From Pegea sp. RAD2-039 (taxonomy: Eukaryota > Chordata > Thaliacea > Salpida > Salpidae), in NCBI GenBank assembly GCA_034620365.1, contig JAQGEQ010000263.1:744001-808000 (forward strand): DNA of 64,000 nt, written 5' to 3'. Under the pieces are notes generated by a model. The model was given only the letters and a program-made list of their open reading frames with translations. It was not told where the DNA came from and made no database searches. The translations under genes and the position numbers were made by a program. Shown piece after piece: positions 13,301 through 58,336 of this stretch. Position 1 is the stretch's first letter; each line of letters starts with the position of its first letter.

Positions 13301-16300
13301 GAAGTTGCCGGAAGTAGGTTTGGAAGAGATCTTCGTAACTTCCGGTTTTTTGTTGATGATCAATTTTGGAGGATTCAATTTCCGATTTTCCGGAAGTTGA
13401 ATTAAGGGAATTCCCCGGAAGTAGTTTAACGGAGTCTTTGAGTCCTTGTTGATCTTCAAAAGAGGAGTCGCGTGTGAAGTTGCCTTGACAACCGCATCTG
13501 GTGGTTTTGACTCGACACACTGCCCTCTAGTGTTTGGTTGAAGATTTTGTAGAAGAGCGCCCACTAATGGATTAGTGGCGACATCTTCACTTTTCCCAGC
13601 AAGGGTCTGACCCAGAAGAATCTGACTCAACAGGGACACCTGCTGAGCAAGGAGGACATTATGGATCTCAGATCGGACTACTTCTGAGACATCTTTTTTC
13701 TTGAGATCTATTAGAGGAAGATTTGATGATTAGATCATTTGAAGATCAATATCACCTGAAGATGTGTCTTGTTTGAGTGAAGAGATGTTTGGAAGATCCG
13801 GTAGTGTTGCATCTGAGGACTTCGGGGAGCTTCCGAAAGCTGTTGACCGGAAGTTGAAAGAGGAACGCTGATTGGACGATTTACCTGTGATTGGTGATGT
13901 GTCCGGATCTTCTTTTAACTTGTGATCTTTGGATGCAGGACTTCTGTGCTCCTGAAAGATCAATTTGTTGGCTGAAAGATCAGCAGATGAAGAAAGATCA
14001 AACCATGGGAATCGACGAGACTTGCGTGATCTCTTCATCATCTTCTGTTGTCATGACAACGGCTTCTTCGAGCGCTGCCGATGGAGTAAGAACAAGGTCT
14101 TCAGATAGATGAGGATTTTGAGAAAGAGAAGGATCAGGTGATGAAAATTTGTGATCTTTAGATAAGGGAGCTGGTTTTGGAGGCAACTGATCTCTAGATG
14201 ACTGACTCCGAGATATAGTTGAAGAGTTTAGAGGGTCCTGAGATGCAGGGAGTTTAAGGTCCTGAGATGCAGGGACCTTAAGGTCCTGAGAAGCAGGGAC
14301 CTTAAGGTCCTGAGAAGCAGGGATCTTTATAGGGTCCTGAGATGCAGGGAGTTTAAGAAGGTCCTGAGATGCAGGGATCTTTAGAGGGTCCTGAGAAGCA
14401 GGGATCTTAAGGGGGTCCTGAGAAGCAGGGGGCCGTTTAGAAAATCTCATTTCCGCAGCAGCTACTCCAAGAATCAAATCTTGACAAGTGAATCGGATTC
14501 GAATCGAAGCTTTTCGCGTTTCATCGCGTGCTAACGTCTTTGCTGACCACGTGACCAACCAACTAGCAAATCCCTCTAGCTTCAACATCCTCTTCTTCAC
14601 TTCAGGAACACAAGCATCGAGTGAAAAAGCAAAAGTGACGTCATCACTAGTCACGCGCTTCGGTGTGGGTAGCAACTGATTGATTGCTAGTTGACGACGG
14701 TTGCTAAGGACTAACATCAAACCACTTTTCTTCGCGTCTTTACTCTGTTTCCATGGAGACGTCAGCGTCGCATAGCGATCAGTGATGACGTCATAGAACT
14801 GTTCGATGAAATGACGATAATATTGATCGTGTTCGATTGTGACATCATCAGTAGACAGACGCGCGCGCTCTTTGTGGAAGAAGATACTCATCAAGGAGTG
14901 TTCGTCGTGACTGACTTGACGTAATCTCGTCTCGAACGCCCTGAAACGCTCCTGCATTTTTGGGGGCACCTCACTCCCCGGCATCAGCTTGGCGACATCC
15001 GTGACGAGTTGAGAGGTGACCGGAAGTGATGACGTCACCGAAAAGACTAGATGTTGAAATTGAGTTTGACAATCGATGAGAGATATAAAAGGTTTGAAGA
15101 TGAGGAGAAGTTGAAGGACTTTTTCAGCTGCATCCGGGATTTCATCTGTATTCTGCTCTTTGTGTCTTTGGTAATCACGAAGTGATGACGTCACTCGGTC
15201 ACGTGTTTCCAGCATCCACAAGAGTGAAGAGCAAAGTTGAAAAGCGCGGGAGATTGAAAGAGTCTCAGGAGACTCTTTAAGATCAGATGAGTCTTCTGAA
15301 AGATGAAGAGTTGCTCCTAGAGAGTGAAACATCACTAAAAGAGTCCTCAGAAGACAACTGATTCGAGATCTTCTCACAAGATCTTCAGAAGAGCTTCCGG
15401 AAGTCGGTTGTGGAAGATAAATCGGAGGAGCAGGAAGATAGAGATCATCTGGGGCGATCAGGGGAGCTTTTGAGCACTCTTCTTTCAACTTCTGGGACAC
15501 AAGATCAACTGACCATGAAGCCAAGTCCGAGCCCACCATCACTGCCACTAAATACAAATCCAACAATGACGTATAAAGGCGTTCAGGTTCAAACGCGCTC
15601 ATGACGTCATCGTCGCTATCAAACGCTACTGAAACTCGACGTTGAAATTCTTCACGTAAAATGACGTCACAACGTCGCGAGTTGGTGGGCAGAGCGCGGA
15701 CTTCATTGGACATTGACGCAAGGACAAGTGCGGTCCTCCAATCGCCTAACTGGTCACTGAAGTGGACAGATTGCAATAAGCGACCACAGCGAAATAGATA
15801 TCGCGTTGTCGCGTCCACTGTCCATCGAAGTGACAATCGCTGGTCTCTGTGGTAGAAACAAGTAGTTGTGGGACTAGTTGTGGGACTAGTTGTGGGTGTG
15901 GGACAAGTAGCAGTGGTTACTTCACCTGATTGTGTCCACGATACGACTTCGGTCCAGGACAAACTCTCGCGGGGCAAAAGTGGATCGCGACTTGAAAGAA
16001 ATTTTGTCGTTTGTAAAGTATGACGTCATCACTGTAGCGAGAAGCTCTACTGGTCGCGCTTCTGAAAAGTTTTCAATTTGACAATTGTCCAATGACAGTT
16101 GAGACAGTTGTACCTGACCAATCAGCCCCTGAAAAAGTTGACAAACGGTCCGCAAGGTCCAATGCTTCATCTAAGCGATAGTCACAAAGATAAATGTCCA
16201 TTTGCATAAATGTGACGTCACTGTTGCTAGGTGACTGGTCCACAAGTTCAAGTGGATTGGTGGACATCGAATTGATCCTGGACTGGACATGAACATGGGC

Positions 16301-25132: not shown

Positions 25133-25876
25133 ATGAATAACTTTAAAGGAAAACGAGCTCTTGTAACAGGCGCTGGTAAAGGAATTGGAAGAGAGCTTGT
25201 AAAAGAATTGATTAAAAGTGGGGCTGAAACATTTGCTTTAAGTCGAACAGAATCTGATTTAATTTCTTTAAAAGAAGAATGTCCACAAGTTAATATCATT
25301 GTTTGTGATTTAATGGATAGAGAAATGACTGAAAAGTCTGTTTCCTCTTGTGGTTATATTGATTTACTTGTCAATAATGCTGCTATAGCAATTTGTGAAC
25401 CTTTCTTAGAGATTACTGCTGAATCTTTCCAAAAACATTTTCGTATTAATGTTGAAGCAACTATTCAAGTTTCTCAAATTATAGCTAAAGGTATGATTGA
25501 AAAGAAAAAAGGTGGAAGTATTGTTAATGTTTCAAGTCAAGCTTCTTTGGTTGGTTTACAAAATCATACAGTATATGGAGCTAGTAAGGCTGCTATAGAT
25601 CAAATTACTCGAACAATGTCACTTGAACTTGGTTGTCATAACATACGAGTTACATCTGTTAATCCTACAGTTGTCAACACAGCCATGGCTAAAGTAGGTT
25701 GGAGTGACCCAGTTAAAGCTAATGCCATGACGTCCCAAATACCTCTTGGACGATTTGCTGAAGTTTCAGAAGTTGTTTCAGTGATTATGTTTTTACTTGG
25801 AGATGGCGCCTCAATGATTACAGGATCATGTATTCCTATTGATGGTGGATGTCTTGGAAGTTTAGCATTAAACTAA
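25133..25876 (+). CDS. DCXR: short-chain dehydrogenase, L-xylulose reductase (DCXR)-like
   Basis: NADP(H)-dependent short-chain dehydrogenase/reductase; in animals DCXR reduces L-xylulose and dicarbonyls such as diacetyl. The 247-residue frame is intronless and full family length (about 244). It shows the cofactor motif TGAGKGIG (residues about 12-19), LSRTESDL after the second strand, CDL in the adenine pocket, LLVNNAAIA, the catalytic Ser in NVSSQASL, the YGASK catalytic Tyr-Lys pair, and VNPTVVNTAM. The run SRTESDLISLKEECP and the VNPTVV...WSDP block match DCXR better than other SDRs. The start at 25133 leaves the usual short N terminus. An alternative is a general carbonyl reductase of the same clade. 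Confidence 0.9.
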   Translation: MNNFKGKRALVTGAGKGIGRELVKELIKSGAETFALSRTESDLISLKEECPQVNIIVCDLMDREMTEKSVSSCGYIDLLVNNAAIAICEPFLEITAESFQKHFRINVEATIQVSQIIAKGMIEKKKGGSIVNVSSQASLVGLQNHTVYGASKAAIDQITRTMSLELGCHNIRVTSVNPTVVNTAMAKVGWSDPVKANAMTSQIPLGRFAEVSEVVSVIMFLLGDGASMITGSCIPIDGGCLGSLALN

Positions 25877-26363
25877 ATAATCTCAGTTCTTAAAGATCTG
25901 TTAAATTTATTTGAAATGTTTGAAATCATACTAATTTGATCAATTAATTTGTTAAATAGTTGCAGTTTGATTTATTATAATATTTAAATAGATTTTGTAA
26001 ATAGTTTTAACAATCATATATAATTGTTTGCTTGATCTGATATTTAGGTAAAATTTGATAAAAATTTATGGGTTATTTTTTGGTAGTTGCAAATTAATAC
26101 ATAAAGTTATTTGTAATTTAAATTTTGTTTAAGTTTTTATCTTTACTAGTTGAATATTCATTATCTTAAAAGAATTTAAACAATATGTTTGTTACAAAAA
26201 TAGAATAAAATATATTTTTATTATTTCTTTTAATGATTTTATTGCTACTAAAATAATGTTTAAAAAATGTATTCTTCTTTAACTTATAATGTATAAAAAC
26301 TTTTATCATTAAACTATATTAAAATTCATTTATTTAAACACAGTTTAAAGCACTTAAATAGAA
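25877..26363. other. spacer between the DCXR-like and FrnE-like genes
   Basis: AT-rich spacer between two genes on the same strand. It holds a likely AATAAA near 26203 and the promoter of the downstream gene; nothing else was recognised. Confidence 0.5.
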
Positions 26364-27278
26364 ATGTCATCTAAACCACTGATAAAGATTGAAGTTGTAT
26401 CTGATCTTATGTGACCTTGGTGTTGGGTCGGTAAAAGAAAAATGGAAACAGCAATCAATGACTACAAACACAAATATAATTTTCAAGTATGCTTAAATCA
26501 AATATTTGTTTTCAAATCAACAGCTTAATAACTTTAAGATTAAACTCGAAAAAATACAATTTTTTTCTGTTTACTGATACGTTTTTTTTTTATTTAATTT
26601 CTTAGGTCACGTGGTTACCTTTTCTTTTAAGACCCCAAATGCCTTTGGAGGGCGTCGAGAAACCAGCAAACTACAGTTCTCAATCAGCTGGGTAAAAAAA
26701 CATTTTTATTCTTTTTGTTTTTTAATGAAATGTTGATCAGTTCACAAGCGTTGATAGCTGCTGGTCAAGATGTTGGAATTGACTTTACTTATAAAACAAC
26801 TCGATTTCCCAACACACTTGCTGGTCATTGTGCTCTTGAATATACATTACAACAAGACCCAAGTGGAACCATTCAAAACAAGGTTTGCTGTTTCAAGCTT
26901 TTAAAAATAATTTCTCATTTCTGTAAACTTCTTTAGCTTCAAGAAAATCTTTTCAAAAGTTACTTTACTGATGGAAATGATCTTTCTGTAAATGAAGTAG
27001 TAAATGTAGCAGCTTCTGTAGGATTAAAAAGATCAGATGTTCAATCTTACGTCACTAATGCTGTAAATATTCAACAAATTAAAGAAAAAGCTTCACAGTG
27101 GTCTTCTAAAGGAGTCACAGGTAGATTAATTGTTTACTTCTTTACTTTTAGCTCACATTGTATTTCAGGAGTACCAGCTTTTATTATGAATGGTAAGATG
27201 ACTTTTTCTGGAGCTCAACAACCTCAATTGTTTAAACAAATGTTTGATACGATTATATCTAGATTTGGAAGTTCTTAG
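26364..27278 (+). CDS. DsbA/FrnE-family thioredoxin-fold protein, probable selenoprotein (UPWC active site)
   Basis: Thioredoxin-fold oxidoreductase of the DsbA/FrnE (2-hydroxychromene-2-carboxylate isomerase-like) family. Five exons fit exactly and keep phase: 26364-26486, 26606-26691, 26741-26882, 26937-27120 and 27169-27278 (215 codons with stop). Codon 17 (26412-26414) is TGA and sits where relatives have the first cysteine of the redox motif: SDLM-TGA-PWCWVGKRK versus SD(T/V)VCPWC(F/Y)VGK. Downstream landmarks are intact: VTWLPFLLRPQMP, GHCALEYTLQQ, LFKSYFTDGNDLS, and the cis-proline region GVPAFIMNGKMTFSGAQQP. A bacterial FrnE or plant At5g38900-type protein is the closest family I recall. 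No other stop interrupts the frame, and a SECIS-like hairpin follows at 27299-27415. I infer that TGA encodes selenocysteine. The alternative is a recent nonsense mutation or a base error (TGC/TGT to TGA). Confidence 0.88.
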
Positions 27279-27298
27279 TCACACTTTATTTTAAAGTT

Positions 27299-27415
27299 TT
27301 TATCAACAGCTGATATTGTAGATGTTAATTTTATGAAGACATCTGTGTAAAATACTTTCTCCACTTTTGTTTGAATTTTACTTTTTAAATTCTATTTTAT
27401 CAGCTGTTGTTGAAA
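27299..27415 (+). promoter_or_regulatory. candidate SECIS element in the 3' UTR
   Basis: Starts 20 nt after the stop. Basal helix: CAACAGCTGATA (27304-27315) pairs perfectly with TATCAGCTGTTG (27398-27409), extended by a few outer pairs. Inside, GTAGA/TCTAT and TTAA/TTAA add pairs. The core has AUGA at 27333-27336 facing UGAA at 27372-27375, so G35/A36 and G73/A74 can form tandem sheared G-A pairs. Helix II then pairs AGACA (27337-27341) with TGTTT (27368-27372), tolerates three pyrimidine mismatches, and closes with GTG/CAC. The apical loop starts UAAAAU, placing the unpaired AA 12 nt after AUGA, the usual SECIS spacing. Drawn by hand, not folded. Confidence 0.65.
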
Positions 27416-28987
27416 TTGACTAACTATTAATTAAATTACATTTCTCACAAATCTTCAAACTTGTTTAACCCTCAGCACCCTTAAGTGAACAGAAACAGTT
27501 GGTAGAATAGATCTACTTAGATTTTAAACGACTTCTGTTTCCTGTTGTAACCTTTCTTACGATCGACACTAAGAACATTTTTGAATTAACGTAGGGTTTA
27601 AACTAATTTTGATGTTGTTAATGTTTGCTAACTGATTTAAGGCAAGTACACGAAATTAAACGGTTTCTAAAACGCGTCAGATACAAAAGATTCTCTTTAA
27701 TCTTTATTAAATAACAGGAATGGATGCTTTGGATAATCTGACTTTTAAACAGTGTTTTGATAAAAGTTTAACGAGTAACTTTGATTAGCTTGCAGTTAAA
27801 ATTTTGCAGAATGCAAATAATTTATGTTGATAATATTGAAACTAAAGTTCTTATGAATGTAAAATATTATTTCATAGATAGCTTTATCTAGTTTTTAATT
27901 ATTAACAAATCTATATTTACATTACAAGCTACTTTTAAAATATTATCTTAAATAAGAGTAAACGAAAAAACTTAATTTAGTAAAAAGACAACTTTAGTAT
28001 TTTCGTTGTTAAAATATCAATTCAGCTAAATTAACTCAAAAAATAGTTTTCAAGATTTGTAAAAGCTTCTGTAATAAGGCAACGAGGTTACTGCTTGTCT
28101 TTCAGCCAAACAATTTTATAAGCAACTTGTAAAGTGTCCTTATCACAAATGTATCATGTATAGATGATTATTGGCCTATAATGGTGACATAAATTCATAC
28201 CAAGCTAACTTAAACTTCAAATCTTACTGAATGAAAATTCTTTGAGTTGTATATTAGTAATTAGTTTAAAAGAATTATTAAAAAGAAAGTTTCTATGTTG
28301 AAGTTTTTCTAGGCACTGCTATTTTGGTGATGATAACTTTTTCATGATCTCCTTTATAAATCTTATTTAAATTAATGATTTATTTTATTAGAAATCATTT
28401 ATAGAAATTTTCCACTAATAAAAACTTTTAGAAAGCAAGAAGTTAGCAAAAAAGAAATTTAAAATATGCTAAGTGGAGTTATTTACAGATAAGAGAAGTG
28501 TTATTGATTTTTTATCAGATAAAGTCATATTATCAGAGATAGAGAAGAAGTACAAAGAGTAGTTTTGTGTCGCTCTATAGCGTCAAGATCTGTTCCATAA
28601 AGTAGTTGACATCAATGTAAAAATAAATCAATAAAAATATTAAATTTTTTAAATTAAATCATAAACCTATAAAATGATTTTTTATACAAGCGTCACTCTT
28701 TTATCACTGTATATGTCCCGTGGCTTTTGTTGCGATTAAAAAGGTTAATTCATTTTTATTAAGAATTTAATTATTTTTAGAGAATTTTAAGTTGATTGCA
28801 TCAAAATACTAACAGAAATCTATTTTGATTAAAATGCCTGATTATTATTTGAAATTTGTAAAATCGTTTATTGGTGGTTACCTTGACAACCTTTTCGTTA
28901 TAGTTAGATTTATTACAAAACTATTCAAACCTTTTTGTAATTATCTTATAAAACCAAAATTTAAATTTATGCGAACTTAATATAAAA
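27416..28987. other. intergenic region
   Basis: AT-rich. A second imperfect hairpin (AACAG-AAACAG at 27489-27500 with CTGTTTCCTGTT at 27534-27545) lies downstream but lacks the facing GA of a SECIS. No coding signal was seen; the promoter of the gene starting at 28988 should lie near its end. Confidence 0.45.
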
Positions 28988-31900
28988 ATGGCTTCTTCTA
29001 AACAAGTTCTTTTATATCCGGCTCCAGAGGAAGCTTATCGAGAGGAAGTACTTAAAGAAATAAAATTTAATATCAAAACAAACAGTTCTAACATTTGTGA
29101 GTTGAAGTTTTGATATTTTTTGAGCGATAGAAATAAGTTATAAGAAAATAAAAGTATAAAGCTACATAAGAATTTTTCAATTTTTTAATGAAATGATAGA
29201 ATTGTTTATTTGACGGTTAATATTAAAGTTTTGAATTTACTAAAAAAAGTTCTTTAAAACATCAAAATATCAAAAAAATTTATATATAAACTTGTATCAA
29301 ACTCAGTATAAAATACCCAACATTTTTTCAAACAGTTAAAAAATATAAACCGTCCATTACATATGCAAGAACAGAAGAAAGTTATTTTTCGAATAAAGAA
29401 GATGAAAAAACTAAATGGTCTAACAGATACAAACGTATCGTACATAATGAAAGGTCTGGATTTTTCTCGGATCGAAGGAAAGCCTATCGCACAATTGGAA
29501 AAATTTATTTAAATAGCGCTGATTTAATCTTTCATGGAGTAACAGATGAATTAAGAAATCAAGTTTGTTTAATTGAGTGAAATTTAGCAACAAAGTGATT
29601 AATAACTTTGTTTTTAGTTGCAACCAATTGATAAATCAAAATATGTAACTTATTCAGAAGAAAAGAAAGAAAAAATCACAGAAAAACCAACAAAAACTTA
29701 TCCATTTGGTTCTGATAATAGTTTCAAATTAATTATAAACACTTTAGGCAAAGCAACTCGACTAAGAAAAGTAATTTATGCAAATGGCTGCATTAACAAG
29801 TTGGTGGAATCTAATCAGGTGGTAGGTTTAAAAGTTCTTCTAAAAAATCGTTTTTTTACAGCAATAAAAGTTACAAATTTCAAACTTTTGACTTTAATCT
29901 TTTTTTCTCAAAATTTTATTTAACTTCTTTAGAAGCAGCTAAAAGAAGAAGAAAAAGAAAAAGAAAAGCAAAGCAACGAAATGGTCACCTCTATGAGTTC
30001 TTCAGCAAAAGCCACCTTTACCTCTTCAGTTGGATCAATTTCTAAGGAATCAACTTCAAGAGCACTCTTTGGTTAGTTGTTGATGACTTAACTACTGTTG
30101 ATAACGTTGAGGCTTAAAGCTGAAGAAAATCAAGCCAAAAACATCCGATCTTCATCAGTTTGGAGTGATGTAGAAAGTAAAACAGATGTTACTAAATTGT
30201 TAGAAGATCTGCAAGACCAAAAATATCGAAAAAATAGGTTTATAAAGTAAATTTCAGTTTAAAGTTTCGAGGTTTTTTGGTTTTTGTAGATTTACTGAAA
30301 ACTTTATGAAAGAAAAGAGAAGAAATTATCGAGAAATGAAACTTCATTACATCAATTCTTTGCTGTGCGCTATTTACAACATGAAACAGAGAACTCTTCA
30401 CACTAAAGTAAAATTGCTGAGTCAGGTTTTGTGAAATGCAAAATTGCTGAGTCAGGTTTTGTAAAAATTAAAAATTGCTGAGTCAGGTTTTGTGCAATTT
30501 AAAATTGCTGAGTCAAGTTTTGTAAAAGTAAAATTTTATTTGCTGTAAACTAATTTCAGCTCAGATATTTTTAGTCTCCTTTAGCTTGGAAAACAGTGAA
30601 AGATTTATTGGATAGTGACGTCATCATTGATGGACTCGGTAGACCTCTACCAAGGTGTCTAAAAAATAATTAGATTAGTGAAAATTAGAAATCAAACTCT
30701 AAATTATTTTGCAGCAGAATGTCAAGTGCTTTACACCAAGAGAAAAGAAGTATTTTAAGTTATAATGTAAATAGTTTTTTTTAATCAAATTCAATATTTG
30801 TTGTTTTCTTTAAAGAATGTTTATCAAATTAAAAAAAATTGTTTAAAATCTGAAAAAGTTATTTTGTTTTTCACTTAAAGGGTTCAGTGATAACAAAAAG
30901 ATCGAATTTTTCAATTTCAAGTAACTTAACAAGCTTCCAAAAGTTGTTAGTTCAAATTTCAATAATTTTTTGCAGTAATTTGGTTTGTCTTTGAATTCTA
31001 ATTAATTCAAATTGTTTTATTTAAAGTAGAAACTGTGAATCAAAAGAGAAAACCGCTTCTAATAAAGATTTAGCCGCAGATTTAGCAACCAACGAGTCCC
31101 GAAAAATGTCCAGGTCAACATTTTCAAAAGTCAAAAACAGGTATTTCTGGTCAAAGAAAATATTAATTTGTGAACATTTACATTTTGTATCTTGGTAAAT
31201 ATATGTTGAAAGTTACACACTAAATAATTGATTAAAACTTATTTTTATAAGCAAATATATTATATATAACTACAGATATATTAGATATATATATTTTTTA
31301 TAAGCAAGATATTTTGATTTCATTTTTTACTGATTTTAAATGTAGATTTTACTAAACAAAGTTTATTAGAATTATCTTAGACAAAAAAACTTTATATTTA
31401 TAAAAGGGTTAAAGTAAAAATTATTTTTATGATTTGTTGTCAAAGCAAGCAGCAACATTGTCTACAACATTGGCAAAAAGTTACAGAAGTTGAAAAAAAT
31501 ATCGAAAAATATCGAGATCAACATAAAGAGTAAAAGAACCTTCGAGACATCAATAATTCAAATTAAAAATTTCCTTTCAATTTAATAAATTGTTGTAGGT
31601 TAGGAATGGAAGCCAGACGACTTTTGGGAATAAATAAGGAAAAGTTTATGCAGATCAAAATTGATGAGAATAAAAGATTAAGAAATTTCTTGAATGAAAG
31701 AGAAATGTGAGAAGAAAGTTATTCTGATTGTTTCTAAACGAAAAACTGTGAATATTAATGACTCAAAATTTATCATAAAAAGGATTTACTTGCAAAAATT
31801 GAGCAAACATTAATTAATTAGAAATCATTTTGGAATATTTATCACAGGTTTCAATTGGAAAAAATGAAATACAAACTTGACCACTTAAAATTTGAGACTA

Positions 31901-46162: not shown

Positions 46163-47047
46163 ATGGTGACTGGTTATCTATCTATAAACTATTCATCTTT
46201 CCATTTCAGCTTATTATTGCCAATAATGCGTCTTCTTGCAAATCTCAAAAAATTAAATTTAAACTTGAAGAGATTTTATACTTATGAAACACCTCCTCAT
46301 CAATGGAACAAATTTTATCCAATAGCTGATGGAAGAAGGCAATCACCAATTAATTTAAGTCTAAATGATCCTGATATTTCATTAAAAAAATCTTATAACT
46401 CAAAATTACAATTGAATTATAAAGATGATGATATAACCTATATAGTTAACAATGGAACGTCTATAACATTCTTCTCAAATGAACAAGCAACAATTACAGG
46501 AGGTCCTCTTGGTTCAAAGTCATTTAAGTTGCTTCAATTTCATTTTCATTGGGGCTCTCAAAGTCATTGTGGTTCAGAACACCTTCTAAATGGTCGCCAA
46601 TTTTCTGCTGAGTTGCATATAGTTCATATGAATGAAATGTATAATAGTTTTGATGAAGCTCTCACTAAAGATGATGGTTTATGTGTGATTGGAGCTTTTA
46701 TTGATGCCAAAGTTGGTGCTGATAATGAAGCATATGCTCCTGTTATAAAAGAATTTAAAAATGTTATATCAGTAGGATCTGAAATTGAAATCTCACCAAA
46801 TATTAACTGTTGTGATCTTTTACCTAATAATCTACATAATTATGCATTTTATGAGGGGTCTTTAACAACTCCACCTCTTAATGAATGTGTGCATTGGATT
46901 TGTATGTTAGATCCAGTAGTTATATCAGAAGAACAGATGGAAAAGTTTCGTCATTTAGAAGGTTCTAATAATAATAAAATTGTAAATAATTATCGAAATA
47001 TACAAAGCTTATTTGGACGTAAAATATTTCATGTGTGTTGTAATTGA
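46163..47047 (+). CDS. alpha carbonic anhydrase, tandem copy 1
   Basis: Zinc enzyme interconverting CO2 and bicarbonate. The frame is open for 294 residues, but the sequence from 46165 to 46209 looks like a short intron or leader (GTGACTGG...CATTTCAG). The likelier start is ATG 46226 ([20 protein letters not shown]), whose basic, acid-free leader fits a mitochondrial targeting peptide. Core motifs are intact: GRRQSPINL, zinc ligands in FHFHWGSQ and ELHIVHMN, the gatekeeper Glu in SEHLLNG, and [16 protein letters not shown] with the proton-relay Thr. There is no membrane anchor or secretory signal. Length fits cytosolic/mitochondrial family members (about 260-305). Confidence 0.95.
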   Translation: MVTGYLSINYSSFHFSLLLPIMRLLANLKKLNLNLKRFYTYETPPHQWNKFYPIADGRRQSPINLSLNDPDISLKKSYNSKLQLNYKDDDITYIVNNGTSITFFSNEQATITGGPLGSKSFKLLQFHFHWGSQSHCGSEHLLNGRQFSAELHIVHMNEMYNSFDEALTKDDGLCVIGAFIDAKVGADNEAYAPVIKEFKNVISVGSEIEISPNINCCDLLPNNLHNYAFYEGSLTTPPLNECVHWICMLDPVVISEEQMEKFRHLEGSNNNKIVNNYRNIQSLFGRKIFHVCCN

Positions 47048-54199: not shown

Positions 54200-57100
54200 A
54201 TGGATGTCATTGATGATAAAATGGAAAATAAATTAAAAAGTCAAAAGGTTGAAGGATCAGATGGTGAAATAGGTGAGGATATGTTTTTTGAAAAATCAAC
54301 ATTTTTCAACTAAATTTTATTTATCAAAAATTAATCAAATTGTTTGTTTTTAGTGGATTCATCTGATGAAGTTCAAACAAATAACCTTCAAGATGAAAAT
54401 ATTATTTCAAGTAAAGAAGAATTTAGTTTAATATCTGATCGTCAAATGGAACAGTTAGATTATGATGAAGATGTTGACAACAGTCTGACAGAAGTAGATA
54501 AAGTGATTTAATCTTCTCTAAAATGATGATTTCAGTAAAATCTGTTTTTATTAATCAGGTAGAATCAGATGAAGTGAAAAATCCAACAGTTAAAAAAGAA
54601 TTATCAGAAGGAGAAGTATGTTTTGAAGCAGAAATCTATTTCAATAATCAAAAAAACCATTTTTTAAACAGATTGAATCAAGTGACGAAGAAAATGGTTT
54701 AGTCAAAGTAAGTATAGCAACCACCAACATCAACCAACTGACCAATTTCTACTTCAGGTCCCACCAGTAGAAGTAGAAGATGGTGAAATGCCAGAAGCCA
54801 CCTCTTGTGGTTAGTACCAAATCTTCATCTTGTGATCTGGTGTAGATATCTGGTCCTATATGTCTTGCCCATCTGTCCACTTGGTCCTGTATGTCCTGCC
54901 CAAGCTGTCCACCTGGTCATATATGTCTTGCCCAAGCTGTCCACTTGGTCCTATATGTCCTGCCCAAGCTGTCTACTTGGTCCTATATGTCCTGCCCATC
55001 TCTCCACTTGGTCCTATATGTCTTGCCCAAGTTGTCCACCTGGTCATATATGTCTTACCCATCTGTCTACTTGGTCATATATGTCTTGCCCATCTCTCCA
55101 CTTGGTCCTATATGTCTTGCCCATCTGTCCACCTGGTCCTATATGTCTTGCCCATCTGTCCACTTGGTCCTATATGTCTTGCCCAAGCTGTCCACTTGGT
55201 CCTATATGTCCTGCCCATCTCTCCACTTGGTCCTATATGTCTTGCCCAAGTTGTCCACTTGGTCCTATATGTCTTGCCCAAGTTGTCCACCTGGTTATAT
55301 ATGCCCTGCCCATCTGTCCACTTGGTCATATATGTCCTGCCCATCTGTCCACTTGGTCATATATGTTCTGTCCACTTGGTCCTATATGTCTTGCCCATCT
55401 GTCCACTTGGTCATATATGTCTTGCCCATCTGTCCACTTGGTCCTGTATGTCCTGCCCATCTGTCCACTTGGTCCTGTATGTCCTGCCCATCTGTCCACT
55501 TGGTCCTATATGTCCTACCCATCTGTCCACTTATCCTATTTCTCACTTTCTCATCTTCACAGGTGACTACAGCATGTTTGGCGACGAATGCTCCCTTCCA
55601 TTACCCCTAGCAACAGATCAACGACCAGTAAGCGACTTTGACGTCATCGGCAACTTAAACTATTTGATTCTTTCAAGGCATATGAGTGTCGTTTCGGTGA
55701 AAGCGCGTGGGCAATTGGATTACGTAACAAAGCAGAAGTAAGCGGTTGTCATAGTGACGTGTGACGTCATTCACGCGTGCGATGTTGATGCAGATGAAGA
55801 AGAAATCGACTCAACGGAAGATCAATGATCCGGATTTTGTGCGGAAGCGTGACGACATCCGGTTAGATCCGTCGCTTAGCAACGACAACGACATCCAAGT
55901 CGACGAGAAGTTTCTGGGCGATGACGTCATGTGAGACTCATGCTGCTCTGGTTCGCTGATGACGTCATCAACTTTACGTGTAGATCTTTCAATCCATTGG
56001 AAGAAGAAGATGATGATGAATTTGCGACTCCGAAGCTAGAAGAAGTGACTCGCATCAAAGAATCGCGCGTCGCTAATCATCTACGTTCCATCAGACCTCT
56101 TATGGCTCCTGAATCTCTCATCAATCAAGCACCGCGGGTGAGTCTCGAACATTTGATGACGTCATCACAACATCGATCACTTGGCAGATGATGTATCGAC
56201 CTCCCCCTCCTCCTTATGGACGTGATCTTCCTCTTCATCATCGATTCGCGCCTCATCGCGGCAGATCGCCGCCATCGCTTCCTTCGCGTCATCCTAATCG
56301 TCATCCATCGCCATCTAGTGGTCACTTACGTCATCACACCGAAAGAGCCGCGCATCACGACCGCGACTATCGCGATCGTCACGTGATTGATCGGTGAGTG
56401 ACGTCATCAGCAGTGTGACGTTTGAAAATCGACGATGACGTTATTTCAGCGATTATCGCGCTTCTGATGCGCGCTTGATGCCACCGGAAGAAGGAAGTAA
56501 AGAGAGATTTGGAAACGGACGAAGGTTTGTGTCTCGGATGTTGATCTCAGATCTTCTTCTAATTCATTTCTTTTCCACAGAATTCGCGAGCTTCCTGGTG
56601 AGTGTTTGTGACGTCATCACTTCGCGTTGTCATCTCCTTGTTGCTAGGTAACGCGGAAGCGGGCGGCGGTAACAACGCTTGGATGGATCCGTGGGTTCGT
56701 GAAGGTCGAAGTGGAGGTCGGAAGAAGCAGCCAGAAGTCCACCGATCTTCTTCCAGCTCCTCCGAGTCCAGTGTGTCTTCCAAGTAACCTCCTCATCTTC
56801 TCATGCATCTCTCGAAGCTTGTGTGACGTCAGACGATCGAGCGCTTCGTCGTCAAGCGGTTCTGAATCATCTTCCAGTGGATCTTCATCGAGTTCTCGAA
56901 GTAGTTCAGCTTCCAGCGAGTCCTCTACGTCATCAACGCGAAAGAAGGCGGCGACGCGAAAAGCGCCAACTGGTGGGAACCGTGTTGTGACAAAAATGAC
57001 GAAAAATCGCGTAAAGGTCGGTTCCGCTTCACTGATCTTCAAAATCTTCTCATCTTGATGCGTCATAGACGAATCCGGAAGCAACCGCGAAACCGCGATC

Positions 57101-58336
57101 TGTAAAAATCAAGAAAAAGCGCGAAGCTTCTAGTAGCAGCGAATTTTCGCGTTCTGACAGCGAACCTCATTCGCCAGATTTGCGGAAAGTCAGGACACAC
57201 GCTTCGGGATCTTCTTCATCATCTTCATCAGGTAGGTCGCGTCTGATGACGTCACTGTATTGATTCCGTGCTTGATGAAGGTTCGGGATCTTCATCGTCG
57301 GGATCTTCTGAAGATTCTGAAGAAGAAAAGAAAACAAAAACGGCAAATAGAAAAGGTAGGAAGAGGTCTTCTGAAGAAGAAGTCTTCCGATTTCATCTTT
57401 CTTCATTTTGATTTCTTTTTTACAGTTTCGATTATCGGCTGGAAACAGGTTAGATGCTGACTACTGGTTGCTACTGACTACTGGTTGCTACTAACTACTG
57501 GTTGCTACTGACTACTGGTTGCTACTAACTACTGGTTGCTAATAACTACTGGTTGCTACTGACTACTGGTTGCTAATAACTACTGGTTGCTACTGATTAC
57601 TGGTTGCTACTAACTACTGGTTGCTACTAACTACTGGTTGCTACTGATTACTGGTTGCTAATAACTACTGGTTGCTACTAACTACTGGTTGCTACTAACT
57701 ACTGGTTGCTACTAGTAACTGGTTGCTACTACTAACTGGTTGCTACTAATTACTGGTTGCTACTAACTACTGGTTGCTACTAACTACTGGTTGCTACTAG
57801 TAACTGGTTGCTACTGACTACTGGTTGCTACTAACTACTGGTTGCTACTAACTACTGGTTGCTACTGATTACTGGTTGCTACTAACTACTGGTTGCTACT
57901 AGTAACTGGTTGCTACTAATTACTGGTTGCTACTAGCTACTGGTTGCTACTTTCTACTGGTTGCTACTAACTACTGGTTGCTACTAATTACTGGTTGCTA
58001 CTAGTATCTAGTTACCGGTTGCTACTGGTTACGAATTGTGTGTTTTGGTGAGATTTTATGATTTTGATTTTTTTTTTCAAGTCTCCACAACCAAAACCGA
58101 GCAAGTTAACTGGTCATCATCTCGTAGACCAGGACCGGTAAGTTCTTCATCTATTTAGTTCATAAACTTATCTTGATAATAGTAGAAGGAAAGTTCCCAA
58201 AATGTCTTCTCAACAATATGCCAAGAACAGCCGGAGCAGTAAAAGTAACAGCATGTTACAACGCCAGCAGATGATCAAACAACAAATTAAAGCTGTTGAA
58301 ACAGAAATCAAAAGAAAAAAAGCAAAATTATCTTGA
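54200..58336 (+). CDS. ZC3H18: zinc finger CCCH domain-containing protein 18-like (ZC3H18), finger exon not found
   Basis: Nuclear RNA-binding adaptor that in vertebrates links the cap-binding complex to RNA decay and export factors. The start at 54200 begins MDVIDDKMENK, then acidic exons with EQLDYDEDVD and EEVE/EDGEMPEA. After a long intron come GDYSMFGDE (55561-55627), ESAWAIGLRNKAE (55678-55737) and KKKSTQRKINDPDFVRKRDD, paralleling human GNYSLI...ESAWERGLRHAKE...KEQEPDFEEKR. Later exons give NAWMDPWVREGR, a long Ser-rich stretch and a C terminus QQMIKQQIKAVETEIKRKKAKLS (human LLKQLKAVEDAIARKRAKI). Stop at 58334-58336. The CCCH finger expected just before GDYSMF is not visible; that position is occupied by a minisatellite-filled intron. 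Most introns are 49-56 nt and carry TGACGTCA. G+C and CpG are high from 55600 to 57300. Confidence 0.87.
54843..55545 (+). repeat. 31-bp minisatellite in a ZC3H18 intron
   Basis: About 22-23 copies of a 31-bp unit built from CTTGGTCCTATATGTC, TTGCCCA and a variable TCTGTCCA or AGCTGTCCA end. It lies between the EDGEMPEATSCG exon and the GDYSMFG exon. Because 31 is not a multiple of three and no frame of the unit has a stop, all three forward frames stay open for more than 230 codons. They are not genes. Confidence 0.95.
55628..57280 (+). promoter_or_regulatory. series of ~50-nt introns each holding TGACGTCA
   Basis: Introns (GT to AG) at 55628-55677, 55738-55793, 55931-55983, 56138-56187, 56394-56449, 56598-56647, 56784-56832 and 57232-57280 each contain the palindrome TGACGTCA, at 55639, 55762, 55960, 56157, 56399, 56609, 56824 and 57247 respectively. 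Most read TGACGTCATC. Two introns nearby (about 56524-56580 and 57017-57070) lack it. The octamer equals the ATF/CREB site, but its intronic placement is unexplained. Confidence 0.8.
57456..58030 (+). repeat. 17-bp minisatellite in a late ZC3H18 intron
   Basis: More than 30 tandem copies of the 17-bp unit CTACTAACTACTGGTTG, with variants (CTACTGACTACTGGTTG, 14-bp forms lacking CTA). The array sits between the Ser-rich exon ending near 57440 and the next short exon at about 58080. Confidence 0.95.

Follow-up and report, generated by a model that had tools for sequence, protein, structure and literature searches.

Does the single in-frame TGA of a FrnE/DsbA-family gene in the salp Pegea sp. RAD2-039 encode selenocysteine (Sec), or does it mark a gene that has lost its function? 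The locus lies in a 64-kb stretch of genomic DNA, referred to here as the window, and its features are collected in Table 1. The gene model comprises five exons with a CDS of 645 nt that remains in phase throughout, encodes 214 residues and ends at a TAG codon. All four introns are of the GT...AG type and an in-frame TAA at 26355 lies ahead of the ATG. The product matches the Pfam DSBA family (PF01323) with an E value of 4.6e-31 and its closest solved structure is FrnE (PDB 5cp1/5cnw, E 8.9e-24), in which the C-P-W-C motif is aligned to TGA-P-W-C of the query. This alignment covers residues 6-200, and the structure is a Cys form whose CPWC occupies the corresponding position. The TGA is the sole internal stop of the CDS and replaces the first Cys of the motif. 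A preliminary description of this DNA had placed a single TGA at exactly that residue and had held the resolving Cys, the other exons, the splice sites and the phase to be intact; the gene model and the FrnE alignment bear this out, C20 being kept. By simple arithmetic, the chance of one random nonsense codon among 214 falling on codon 17 is approximately 0.5%. A signal peptide is not obvious by eye and the product is therefore probably cytosolic.

Table 1. Positions of the FrnE/DsbA gene, of the SECIS-like hairpin downstream of it and of tandem arrays in the window.
Feature	Position	Strand	Basis
Exon 1, with start codon and UPWC motif	26364-26486	+	Gene model; matched again in genome search, one TGA inside
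Codon 17, in-frame TGA, very probably read as selenocysteine (residue 17)	26412-26414	+	Gene model, homologue columns, FrnE structure alignment
Exon 2	26606-26691	+	Gene model; genome search with protein
Exon 3	26741-26882	+	Gene model; genome search with protein
Exon 4	26937-27120	+	Gene model; genome search with protein
Exon 5, GVPAF cis-Pro region and TAG stop	27169-27278	+	Gene model; genome search with protein
SECIS-like hairpin, helix I arms 27298-27328 / 27385-27415	27298-27415	+	Inverted repeat, folding
5' SECIS core AUGA, G-A opposite G-A of 3' side	27333-27336	+	Fold of 27297-27425
Unpaired AAAA, 5' side of apical loop, 12 nt past core UGA	27349-27352	+	Fold of 27297-27425
3' SECIS core GA	27373-27374	+	Fold of 27297-27425
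Tandem array, period 27 bases	14227-14430
Tandem array, period 30 bases	30408-30535
Tandem array, period 31 bases	54851-55539
Tandem array, period 17 bases	57460-58003

Judged from sequence, the UGA at codon 17 is very probably decoded as Sec, which would give a FrnE/DsbA-like thiol-disulfide oxidoreductase with a U-P-W-C site. This is the probable animal selenoprotein that the preliminary description had proposed, and the reading is supported by four lines of evidence: the gene model, the Sec machinery of the genome, a SECIS-like hairpin downstream of the gene and a tunicate clade without a Cys row. In the proposed mechanism SBP2 would bind the hairpin in the 3' flank and recruit eEFSec carrying Sec-tRNA(Sec). 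During dithiol/disulfide exchange the selenolate of Sec17 would make the attack, and C20 would resolve it.

Genes for tRNA-Sec, SBP2 and eEFSec, which the preliminary description had proposed to look for, and for SepSecS and selenophosphate synthetase were sought in the 105.7-Mb assembly (387 contigs), and all five were found in this same genome. A tRNA-Sec with the anticodon TCA scored 79.1 bits (cut-off 47). SepSecS, spread over several exons, and eEFSec were also found, together with an SBP2 exon that matches SECISBP2 of PDB 7zjw (E 3.9e-18). The selenophosphate synthetase (SPS) carries a TGA of its own (LKG-UGA-GCKVP). Other genes of the genome have in-frame TGA codons as well, with one in five of six GPx loci and in both Rdx loci; examples are NVASK-UGA-G of a GPx and MCHS-UGA-GYQKAFEQY of a SelT-like protein.

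Two side observations were made in these searches. In the SPS gene (G000:C3:2349463-2350091) two 5' exons are candidates for alternative use, of which one contains the TGA and the other reads LHGAACKIP. The pair resembles the ascidian gene with Sec and Gly isoforms described in PMC4561486. At the position of the Gly of those ascidian isoforms the second exon has Ala. Below the tRNA-Sec cut-off there were 37 tRNA-like matches of 37-46 bits, many of them on G000:C225, which are possibly arrays of another tRNA with a long variable arm.

The preliminary description had also suggested that a SECIS be sought in the 3' flank, and here the outcome is divided. On the positive side, a SECIS-like hairpin starts 19 nt past the FrnE stop codon. 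The unconstrained fold of 27297-27425 has an energy of -31.1 kcal/mol (z -5.59), and none of 200 shuffled sequences was as good. Helix I is approximately 25 bp long and the apical loop is single and large. Helix II is built of two stems, AGACA/UGUUU and GUG/CAC, separated by a 3x3 internal loop of pyrimidines, and is weak (-2.7 kcal/mol alone). Against a SECIS, the inner piece (27317-27402), when folded alone, adopts a different structure in which the SECIS core is missing (z -0.56). This indicates that the strong z value stems mostly from helix I and that the SECIS shape needs helix I to hold the arms. The Rfam SECIS model had no match in 26000-30500 at E values up to 10, and Rfam at gathering thresholds gave no match in the whole window. 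Over the genome the SECIS model was without a match at E 0.001, but the control loci were likewise unmatched and this result was not counted as absence. On the folding evidence the hairpin is probably the SECIS of the FrnE gene.

The specificity of this call was gauged with a SECIS scanner that had been written before the hairpin was noticed. When the 3' flank was scanned by helix II energy the hairpin came second of two candidates; with flanks added it came first, and none of 300 flank shuffles reached its energy. A second candidate, with its core TGA at 28505, has an energy of -21.4. It too is lower in energy than any of the 300 shuffles, whose minimum is -20.9, but it was not preferred because it is weaker and sits 1.2 kb downstream. 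When both strands of the whole window were scanned, 12 of 124 candidates, the hairpin included, reached -27.3, and energy by itself was judged too unspecific for ranking. The geometry is kept in the unconstrained fold by five of the 124, among which the hairpin stands far ahead with a z of -5.02 (the next being -1.54). None of eight control loci passed this strict geometry filter, which is therefore selective but not sensitive. The ten candidates at these loci had z values from -2.55 to 1.28, so that a strong z is no mark of the other SECIS candidates of this genome. By eye, the scanner output contained plausible candidates at six of the eight control loci (SPS2, both Rdx genes and the GPx genes L017, L020 and L022), a weak one at locus L019 and no plausible one at locus L018. 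A very long helix I is common to the SECIS candidates of the FrnE gene (25 bp) and of the Rdx-family gene L016 (28 bp, constrained fold).

Further evidence came from the relatives of the protein, among which the preliminary description had proposed a search for Sec/Cys pairs at the TGA codon. The best 120 of 383 protein homologues were scored at the Sec column: 42 have Cys aligned at this position, three have Trp, one has Leu and 74 begin past the site. The Trp rows are the result expected if a TGA were read as Trp, though they may also reflect TGG. The 42 homologues selected for having Cys here all retain P18 and C20, and on the upstream side of the TGA 41 of the 42 retain S13 and D14, the remaining one having a gap. 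The frame is thus conserved on either side of the TGA, and this is expected neither from a downstream start nor from decay. The 74 late-starting models include Ciona intestinalis, C. savignyi, Clavelina, Branchiostoma, Solemya, Saccoglossus, Owenia, Bugula and Watersipora. A late start in a protein model is an indirect sign, as an incomplete contig can give the same result and some of the 74 are perhaps fragments.

Identity to the tunicate proteins is 54% for Clavelina, 54% for C. savignyi and 49% for C. intestinalis; a Cys-form protein of Aplysia (47% identity) scores slightly above these relatives. In a tree of 51 rows, built from the query with the first 45 homologue hits and five further named ones, the window protein groups with P0001, to which it is 84% identical. 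The clade that contains it has 16 rows, among them both Ciona species and Clavelina, with support of 100/98. Of its other 15 rows, 14 begin past the site, one has Trp and none has Cys. A second copy of FrnE was not found in the genome, where a search with the protein (E up to 1) returned just the five exons of this gene. A genome search with Pfam DSBA, which missed the short exons of the window gene itself, gave one place only as a possible Cys paralogue. This is a GST-kappa-like gene (best named row Clavelina, 52%), and it was rejected as it has SPYS where CxxC would be.

Four other explanations of the TGA have to be weighed against decoding as Sec. That the gene is a pseudogene, a former Cys gene hit by a nonsense mutation, would account for the in-frame stop. 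It is nevertheless very improbable, given five exons without any other lesion, the intact state of every splice site, a pattern of missing Cys that is common to the nearest relatives and the SECIS-like hairpin downstream. A sequencing error, in which a Cys codon TGC or TGT was read as TGA, would need just a single base change; however, the site in the other clade rows is either absent from the model or Trp and never Cys, and the SECIS-like hairpin is present. We give this explanation almost no weight.

Translation might instead begin past the TGA, with M27 as one candidate start, and the product would then be truncated and lack the active site. The Clavelina model and two Ciona models, whose first residue aligns with residue 31 of the query, imply such a product. 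Against this stand the conserved S13 and D14 ahead of the TGA and the report that the Ciona model is a misannotation (PMC2874816), and a downstream start is accordingly extremely unlikely. Readthrough that needs no SECIS and inserts an amino acid other than Sec at the UGA draws on the fact that the SECIS call comes from folding, with no Rfam match and an inner part that folds otherwise when alone. The position is, however, that of the catalytic Cys, and both the Sec machinery and the hairpin are present, which leaves readthrough of this kind highly unlikely. Decoding as Sec remains the reading that we prefer.

The preliminary description had suggested that an animal selenoprotein of the FrnE type may be new. 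This does not hold, as such proteins are described in PMC2874816, PMC3473315 and PMC3965025. In 2010 Sec-DsbA was reported in C. intestinalis, C. savignyi and the amphioxus Branchiostoma floridae, together with a misannotated Ciona database model in which the Sec-TGA had been put in the UTR (PMC2874816). A report of 2012 placed Sec-DsbA in Nematostella, Lottia, Capitella and amphioxus and the Cys form in a sponge and Trichoplax (PMC3473315). SelenoDB 2.0, an annotation of animal selenoproteins, also lists FrnE (DsbA) as a family (PMC3965025), and Sec-FrnE has been described in Mamiellophyceae and M. viride (PMC6627142).

The gene of the window is therefore a new member of a known animal selenoprotein family. 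It shares with the Ciona and Branchiostoma genes of PMC2874816 the family, a Sec that replaces the first Cys, a Sec codon in the first exon, a predicted SECIS downstream and, among its database relatives, the misannotated start reported there. It differs from them in species, being 49-54% identical to the database proteins of Ciona and Clavelina, and in its hairpin, which has one large apical loop and the long helix I whereas both Ciona SECIS elements are given as form II in that report. The proteins of Nematostella, Lottia, Capitella and amphioxus and the FrnE entries of SelenoDB 2.0 belong to the same family in other phyla, and the proteins of Mamiellophyceae and M. viride are likewise FrnE with Sec but come from green algae. 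With this gene the animal FrnE selenoproteins gain a well-supported member, and the general picture is unchanged. The number of homologues that begin past the Sec site, some perhaps being fragments, suggests that many database FrnE models are without the active site. A more tentative proposal, which we consider rather doubtful, is that all tunicates, uncultured planktonic ones included, have fixed Sec FrnE without a Cys copy and that the SECIS of this gene is unusual in the length of helix I, its closeness to the stop codon and the pyrimidine loop that breaks helix II.

Just upstream of the FrnE gene, at 25133-25876 on the forward strand, lies a single-exon gene for a short-chain dehydrogenase resembling L-xylulose reductase. 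Its identity is 72% to C. intestinalis and 71% to Phallusia, and three longer named rows from Heliothis and Ovis (50-59% identity) score above the tunicates. Tunicates are near named relatives of FrnE, of GST kappa and of this dehydrogenase, and judged from nearest relatives and the SPS exon pair the genome is that of a tunicate, probably one of the ascidian-thaliacean group. Hairpin candidates with an identical score at 46566, 48536 and 50503 on the reverse strand are spaced approximately 1.97 kb apart, which suggests that they belong to a repeated unit of about that length.
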